This document shows positions 10,212 through 11,075 of a stretch of DNA of 64,000 bases, piece after piece. The position numbers and the translations under genes were made by a program. The notes beneath the pieces are model-generated. The model was given only the letters and a program-made list of their open reading frames with translations. It did not search any database and had not been told where the DNA came from. Within the stretch, counting starts at the first letter, position 1, and every line of letters begins with the position of its first letter. The stretch is from Marinitoga aeolica (GTDB lineage: Bacteria; Thermotogota; Thermotogae; Petrotogales; Petrotogaceae). The stretch is from assembly GCF_029910535.1 (NCBI RefSeq), contig NZ_CP069362.1, positions 248,001 to 312,000 of the forward strand, in the 5' to 3' direction.

Positions 10212-10237
10212 TTTCAAATTATTAGGAGACATTTAAA
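10212..10237 (-). repeat. Island boundary element, copy 5
   Basis: A full minus-strand copy that overlaps the stop codon of the viperin-like gene. It lies about 80 bp before the 280-residue gene. No separate gene is visible in those 80 bp. Confidence 0.8.
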
Positions 10238-11075
10238 TTTCTTCTGAATTAAAATACATATAATTAATTTTTGAACGTTTTAAAAATACTTCTTTATTTA
10301 TATATTTATTGCTTAAAAACTTTTCTATATCATAATCTAAAACATCCCCAATATCTATTGTTTTATATTCACCATCTTTTTTTACTGACACATAAAAATG
10401 CCCTTTTGGATCTATTGATGCATACCCACCTGACATATAATCATTATCTTCATATATAAATTGACCATTCCAATCCTTAATTATTTCTTTTATTCTTTTT
10501 ATCTTTTCATGAAATTCTTTTTTTGAAATTTCTAATTTATTTTTATTCATTTTTGCAATTCCTATAGAAGGTAAATATTGAAATACTTTCCATCTATATA
10601 TATTTTTTGTTTTTATCCAATATGCTATTTCTTCAATATCTTCTATATTAATTTTGCTAACTACGGTATTTATTTTAACTTTTACTTCTTTTTCTAAAGC
10701 TTCATCTATAATTTTTTCTGATCTTATAAAATGTTTTTTTGATTTACCTAATTTTTCATTCATATTTTCTTTTAAAGAATCAATATCTATAGTTAAAATA
10801 TCTAAGTAATCAAAATTTATTTTATTTGTTCCATTAGTTATTAATTCAGTTGTAAAATCTAATTTTTTTGCATACTCAATTGCCTCAAATACATTCCAAC
10901 TTACTAATGTTGGTTCTCCACCAGCAAAAGAGATTTTAGAAAAATTCATTTTTCTTAAATGATCTAAAATATTAAAAACTTTACTTTTTTCTATTTCTCC
11001 TTTACCAATATGCCTATAACAATATATACATTTGTAATTACATAAATCATTTAAAAATATACTTGCACTATACAC
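10233..11075 (-). CDS. Prokaryotic viperin-like radical SAM enzyme
   Basis: The radical SAM cluster motif CNYKCIYC is at residues 12-19 (CxxxCxxC), followed by KISFAGGEP. The later part follows viperin closely: [40 protein letters not shown] and a C-terminal block ending near [12 protein letters not shown]. Viperins convert CTP, UTP or GTP into 3'-deoxy-3',4'-didehydro nucleotides that terminate viral RNA synthesis. The open frame extends back to 11153, but GTG 11075 is the best start: it has GGAGGGGAAAG in front, gives 280 residues, and removes 26 residues of unlikely sequence. Related radical SAM families share the motif, so substrate is not proven, but the RWKVFQ and LDIL blocks strongly favour viperin. 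Confidence 0.85.

Follow-up and report, generated by a model that had tools for sequence, protein, structure and literature searches.

The window, by which we mean the whole 64,000-nucleotide stretch of Marinitoga aeolica DNA that was analyzed, holds a type III CRISPR island in which a gene at 10233-11075 encodes a divergent relative of viperin. Viperin is a human antiviral enzyme, and bacterial relatives of it exist. The features of the island, all on the minus strand, are:

1032 to 1454, minus strand: single CARF-domain protein
1769 to 2761, minus strand: cas1, with cas2 genes on both sides (2774-3040 and 1497-1772)
4228 to 6642, minus strand: CARF-CYTH-HD effector
6833 to 7483, minus strand: DarG-like macrodomain protein
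7470 to 8063, minus strand: DarT-like protein
8093 to 8479, minus strand: RNase H-like protein (Pfam)
8566 to 9294, minus strand: RadC-like JAB protein (Pfam)
9291 to 10133, minus strand: 280-aa protein, family not recognised, first gene of the next cassette
10233 to 11075, minus strand: divergent radical SAM enzyme of the viperin family (280 aa), with its GTG start at 11075 and stop at 10233
11138 to 11169, minus strand: terminator-like hairpin that closes the 78-aa ORF cassette, immediately upstream of the viperin element
11232 to 11468, minus strand: 78-aa ORF with no Pfam match, in a cassette missing from the sister genome
11770 to 11795, minus strand: terminator-like hairpin past the low-coordinate end of the array
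11808 to 16254, minus strand: CRISPR array in which a 22-mer of repeat GTTTTTAATCTACCTATGAGGTATGGAAAC occurs 66 times
16590 to 23377, minus strand: type III-A genes (an ORF without a PADLOC hit at 16590-17210, then Csm5, Csm4, Csm3, Csm2 and Cas10a, followed by Cas6)

The array is presumably transcribed from the minus strand, because its repeat ends in ATGGAAAC and the low-coordinate repeat is degenerate. All window genes named here, from cas6 down to a protein kinase gene at 1-1020, point in one direction. A type III-B system with its own array and a prim-pol gene lies to the left of the window, as do PP2C, vWA and FHA-PIN genes; the effector genes adjacent to the array in the window are Csm genes (III-A), which rules out their assignment to type III-B (Cmr). 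A sequence-only reading of the locus had proposed a type III CRISPR setting, a cassette series shared with CARF effectors and the absence of a nearby nucleotide kinase. The array, Csm genes, cas6, cas1, two cas2 genes and CARF genes bear out the setting, the viperin gene shares the island with the CARF genes at 1032-1454 and 4228-6642, and Pfam matched no nucleotide kinase family in 20 proteins from the window and the 20 kb to its left. No CARF or SAVED model matched the viperin protein itself. Repeat-spacer units of the array are duplicated at 12350-12619 and 15339-15712; two neighboring spacers each occur as a tandem pair, and a 170-bp stretch is repeated at 99%.

The GTG at 11075 is preceded on the minus strand by a strong Shine-Dalgarno sequence, GGAGGGG. 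A longer ORF that opens with TTG and extends to 11153 was rejected, as it lacks comparable Shine-Dalgarno support and would overlap the upstream element and part of the terminator. The viperin sequence blocks claimed for the product are all present in the ORF, RWKVFQ included. The CNYKCIYC block is not diagnostic alone, as 26 genome contigs recovered mostly through that motif read as MoaA or other radical SAM proteins once their ORFs were extracted. Profile searches gave NF038283 (viperin_w_prok) as the best NCBIfam model (E 2.5e-48, residues 6-268 against profile positions 6-280 of 281), with TIGR04278 viperin in second place (2.5e-16), and PADLOC pVip models matched at 8.9e-51 and 1.4e-49, the best being the kinase-associated one. 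Since the NF038283 score of 164.7 bits is 15 bits short of the NCBIfam cut-off of 180, the protein falls outside the named equivalog; the relatives in the sister species (G001) and in two further genomes (G086 and G087) score 166.5-167.3 bits and are likewise under the cut-off. A tblastn search of 72,556 plasmid records returned 15 matching records, 12 of them annotated as viperin, two (E. coli) as radical SAM protein, and one as a moaA/nifB/pqqE family protein with an adjoining thymidylate kinase gene.

The placement of the protein among viperins or among MoaA-like enzymes, the check that the sequence-only reading had named, was examined with a maximum-likelihood tree whose 42 rows comprised 18 viperin candidates, 8 MoaA and 16 other radical SAM proteins. 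The viperin candidates, the window protein among them, all fall in a single clade (97/87), apart from MoaA, whose 8 rows make up a clade of their own (100/99). Within the viperins, the window protein joins G001 (100/99), then G086 and G087 (100/99), then G182 (100/96), and the 12 other viperins are the sister group of this branch (99/94). The E. coli plasmid radical SAM protein is basal to the viperins on a branch of length 1.92, and its position there is unsure because the branch is long. Its gene (L125 2456-4466, plasmid NZ_CP027324) stands beside genes for a deoxynucleoside kinase and NudI, and the protein matches PADLOC pVip at 1.2e-30.

The protein has only three cysteines (C12, C16 and C19), in a CX3CX2C cluster motif, and these are invariant across seven viperins together with K134, N136, W162 and K163 and, toward the C-terminus, E209, N211, M214, Y218, D222 and R267 (E-x-N-x2-M-x3-Y-x3-D ... 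R). Y218 aligns with mouse viperin Y302, which we take to be the catalytic tyrosine, and R267 with mouse R347, presumably a phosphate contact. The loop after RWKVFQ reads SIGIAK, compared with IEGEN in mouse viperin, and the arginine that follows the conserved glycine is replaced by lysine; these differences suggest that the substrate could differ from that of the mouse enzyme, and we make no prediction of the base. An AF2 model (pLDDT 75.8, pTM 0.79), whose weak parts are the C-terminus and residues 10-24, 53-59 and 171-176, retrieved only viperins at Foldseek ranks 1-28, with SkfB at rank 29, and structural Z scores were 23.9 against mouse viperin with CTP or UTP, 20.6 against SuiB and 16.5-16.6 against MoaA. 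We weighed whether the protein is instead a MoaA-like or SPASM-type radical SAM enzyme, given that CNYKCIYC is common to MoaA-like proteins and that the MoaA and NirJ2 models match at E about 1e-15. Three MoaA-like proteins that we checked have seven cysteines each and a C-terminal CX2CX13C, which is absent from the window protein, and three cysteines alone leave none for an auxiliary cluster and hence fit neither MoaA nor a SPASM enzyme. With the tree, the fold and the C-terminal residues also against it, we treat this identity as ruled out and give it hardly any credence. By profile, tree, fold and conserved residues, the gene at 10233-11075 is a real, divergent prokaryotic viperin.

Judged from its substitutions, the gene evolves under purifying selection, with dN/dS of 0.25 between the window and G001, a value that leans on 24 synonymous changes because dS is low (0.18), and of 0.07 between G086 and G087. 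Selection of this sort and the intact residues together argue for an active enzyme.

The proposal that the viperin gene has a boundary element of its own proved right, as one copy of a 24-bp element (TTAAATGTCTNNTAATAATTTGAA in gene sense) lies on each side of the gene. Eight copies occur in the window, where 0.24 are expected and 0 of 100 shuffles contained as many:

1477 to 1500, minus strand: element ahead of the CARF/protein kinase/PP2C/FHA cassette
3314 to 3337, minus strand: element ahead of the 83-aa ORF/cas2/cas1/cas2 cassette
4168 to 4191, minus strand: element ahead of ORF 3334-4140
8492 to 8515, minus strand: element ahead of the RNase H-like gene, with a TTG start codon variant
10213 to 10236, minus strand: element at the viperin 3' edge, opening the next cassette; its TAA is the viperin stop codon, and its mini-ORF reads MSPNNLKEREVR
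11108 to 11131, minus strand: element that opens the viperin cassette at its 5' edge; its mini-ORF reads MSYINLD
11577 to 11600, minus strand: element opening the 78-aa ORF cassette, a unit missing from the sister genome
11661 to 11684, minus strand: element closest to the array; its counterpart in the sister genome is decayed

With up to 3 mismatches allowed, the genome holds 12 copies, on one strand and all within 230,810-259,684 (29 kb) of its 2,444,241 bases, and the reversed motif used as a control gave 1 match. A degenerate form, AAATGTCKNNTNNTAAYTTRRA, matches exactly 25 times across 103 phylum genomes (control, 1), always in one of five genomes, and no copy was found in five other genomes of the same genus. 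The copies that we inspected in context (window 1-11700 and loci L084, L097, L098 and L209-L213) each precede either a gene, a terminator or a further copy. In three of the eight window copies, the TAA of the element is the stop codon of the preceding gene, compared with 14 of 11,670 positions at which this would be so, and another three lie within about 15 bases after a terminator-like hairpin. By eye-judged orthology, the element is kept across genera before a vWA gene and before an 83-85-aa ORF, both in G000 (the genome of the window), G001, G013 and G016. Units without a gene, made up of the element and a terminator, were also seen (e.g., L084 17682-17583 and L097 17765-17690). On viral contigs there was one match per contig among the matches listed, which is chance level for so loose a pattern.

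Two identities for the element were tried and set aside: promoter-like sites of the sigma-70 type are not commoner in 1-11850 than in shuffles (94 vs 108.6), and no Rfam family reached its gathering threshold in 1-24000. Our literature search returned nothing that evidently describes such an element. We favor reading it as a translated leader. The start codon is ATG in 36 of 39 copies and TTG in three, the peptide would read M-S-x-x-N-L, and departures from the commonest codons at positions 2, 5 and 6 leave the residue as it is in 24 cells (TCT/TCG 14, AAT/AAC 4, TTG/TTA 6) and alter it in five (2 TAT, 1 AGT, 1 ATG, 1 TAG); these cells are not independent, since TCG follows genus, and the loosest copies in the tally (4-5 mismatches, e.g., L210 5187 with its in-frame TAG) may be chance matches. 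Codons 3 and 4, whose first two positions vary although T is kept at the third in 37 of 39 and 39 of 39 copies, speak against a purely coding reading, and a DNA or RNA signal is the alternative. At the element at 11577, the mini-ORF crosses a strong hairpin (window 11538-11600, terminator-like on the plus strand), an arrangement that resembles a leader-peptide attenuator.

The sister species G001 provides a closer view of the cassette edges. Identity between the two genomes is 0.93 from 11133 downward and 0.53 above, a step that places the start of the homology block at the element before the viperin gene; beyond the element at 10236 it drops to 0.74-0.80 and recovers in the next gene. G001 matches the window from the array end, through the terminator and the decayed element, up to 11577, and then continues with the viperin cassette. 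Between the elements at 11577 and 11108, the window has an extra unit of 469 bp that comprises an element, the 78-aa ORF and a terminator. The sister difference is thus the gain or loss of exactly one element-bounded unit, and a deletion between two 24-bp direct repeats would give the identical picture.

Synonymous divergence from G001 was compared for 29 of 33 gene pairs, the exclusions being two antisense ORFs, one array ORF and one pair whose best match lies on another contig. It varies by cassette (4 of 20,000 label shuffles were as large, neighboring genes not being independent), and the viperin gene is the lowest of the 29 (pS 0.16 vs 0.37 pooled, Fisher p 3e-8). Against a cassette model, pS ranges from 0.22 to 0.48 inside the vWA-cmr unit, and one difference between the genomes, an ORF at L098 4208-4669 that we take to be DUF1232-like, falls between an element and its gene. 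Integron cassette arrays are serial, in one orientation, with a short junction site and gain or loss of single cassettes. The island is alike in all of these respects, but its element is at the 5' edge of the cassette and the island contains no dedicated integrase of the two families searched: the genome's single match to tyrosine recombinases (PF00589) is at 1.19 Mb, and no resolvase (PF00239) was found. An integron-type site was rejected on this basis. It is conceivable, though in our estimate rather doubtful, that the island is a new sort of cassette array in which each defence unit, viperin included, begins with a 24-bp leader, AAATGTC[T/G]NNTNNTAA[T/C]TT[A/G][A/G]A, that would control the unit and mark the point of gain, loss or swap; a viperin lineage would then have been recruited into type III loci through this leader and placed under common control with cas1-cas2, CARF effectors and the prim-pol gene.

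Close copies of the viperin (50-100% identical) are present in four of 103 phylum genomes (G000, G001, G086 and G087). Ten of the 103 match at E 1e-12 or better; the six beyond the close four share 24-31% identity, with E values of 5.6e-18 or weaker, and two of them (L063 and L064) fall outside the viperins in the tree. Among 390 genomes drawn from the whole domain, NF038283 has matches at E 1e-38 or better in nine: the close four, G182 and four that exceed the cut-off. A CRISPR array lies on the same stretch in all four close-relative loci and in none of 14 other viperin loci (five genomes, and nine plasmids with stretches of ~5.7 kb, about 2.5 kb on each side). G182, the fifth member of the clade, has no array near its viperin, so CRISPR linkage is not a trait of the whole branch. 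A clade-specific profile found no close relative in viral contigs, and a wider one found four canonical viperins there (L129-L132), one of which (L131) has an 11-fold repeat with a period of about 56 bp at its locus.

These distributions bear on whether the gene is a passenger, that is, an ordinary mobile viperin in a permissive defence island whose linkage to CRISPR has no functional meaning. Its patchy occurrence, the unlinked relative in G182, a homology block that starts at the element and a synonymous divergence as low as would be expected of a recently moved unit all fit such an account. On the other side, two lineages that are about 50% identical keep a viperin in CRISPR loci of differing gene order at dN/dS of 0.07-0.25, and the 14 other loci lack arrays, nine of these having been viewed with only about 2.5 kb per side. 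We consider a passenger quite possible, at somewhat less than an even chance.

The G086 and G087 loci run cas1, argonaute, viperin, cas2 and prim-pol, the viperin gene being co-directional with cas1 and prim-pol and separated from its neighbors by tens of bases, and a gene for a fused RpoB-RpoC-like RNA polymerase is divergently adjacent; such a gene also occurs in the genome of the window at 201.6-205.7 kb. This arrangement raises the idea that the enzyme acts inside the CRISPR machinery, its modified nucleotide terminating or tagging chains made by the linked primase-polymerase or the fused RNA polymerase, or Argonaute guides. We think this unlikely, as eight of ten genomes with the Argonaute have no viperin, the viperin occurs in G000 and G001 although they lack that Argonaute, and the viperin gene of the window is 7.5 kb from cas1.

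Our preferred interpretation, which we hold to be probable, is that an apparently intact viperin makes a chain-terminating ddh-nucleotide and serves as an innate second line of defence, independent of cyclic oligoadenylate (cOA), beside the CRISPR systems. The enzyme would reductively cleave SAM and dehydrate a ribonucleoside triphosphate to the 3'-deoxy-3',4'-didehydro analogue, which would terminate RNA chains of phage polymerases. PMC10732462 ascribes chain termination by ddh-nucleotides to viperins in general. The protein has no CARF or other sensor domain, so that action independent of the cOA signal is expected. It would work alongside both type III systems, Csm and Cmr, and the CARF effectors that belong to them, and it is probably co-expressed with all of these through the shared leader element.

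Compared with known prokaryotic viperins (NF038283; PADLOC pVip), the window protein is alike in its whole-length profile match, fold, active-site residues and clade, but differs in its score under the NF038283 cut-off, its place in a branch sister to the 12 other viperins of the tree, its CRISPR linkage and the lack of a detected nucleotide kinase beside it; it also lacks the insert after the cluster motif that is found in the G141, G149 and G130 viperins. Plasmid viperins with linked kinases (those of Nostoc, Sphaerospermopsis and Anabaena, plus the radical SAM protein of the E. coli plasmid) belong to the same superclade and adjoin deoxynucleoside or thymidylate kinase genes, whereas none was found adjacent or fused to the viperin of the window. 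Type III ancillary (CARF) effectors share the island and the cassette series with the viperin, which differs in having no CARF domain and thus no expected cOA input. The G086 and G087 loci resemble CRISPR-Argonaute-CAPP operons with prim-pol, cas1, cas2 and an MpAgo-like argonaute, as described for Marinitoga piezophila in PMC8211822, a text in which the word "radical" is absent; the genome of the window has no such argonaute. Neither "viperin" nor "radical" is present in the texts of PMC12669027 and PMC11229360, and no viperin in a type III locus is reported in the titles and abstract beginnings that we surveyed, a partial coverage that does not establish absence from print.

If the preferred interpretation holds, nucleotide-analogue poisoning and type III CRISPR, usually treated separately, come together at the same group of loci, and do so in two lineages. 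Through its shared leader motif, the island offers a concrete handle on possible co-regulation within defence islands and on the acquisition of single genes.

Several further features of these loci were observed. G001 contains two arrays of the same repeat in opposite orientation around its Csm genes (L069 1415-2614 and 11969-14254), and the side that carries the viperin gene has the opposite orientation to that in the window, as though the arrays had recombined and flipped it. DarT-like genes occur in type III islands of two genera (window 6833-8063, where a DarG-like gene accompanies it, and L099 10202-10873), each in an element-led unit. Fused RpoB-RpoC-like RNA polymerases are encoded in or near type III loci at L068 7744-12321, L099 11672-15916 and L100 10732-13803 (partial), as well as at L214 6582-10652, which is the 201.6-205.7 kb gene of the window's own genome and is adjoined by a CARF gene. 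Where complete, these polymerases have 1,356-1,525 aa, and a gene for a sigma54-activator/RtcR-like AAA protein lies nearby. Matches to the RpoB-RpoC-like polymerase at E 1e-60 or better, not all of them necessarily fused, occur in 27 of the 103 phylum genomes.
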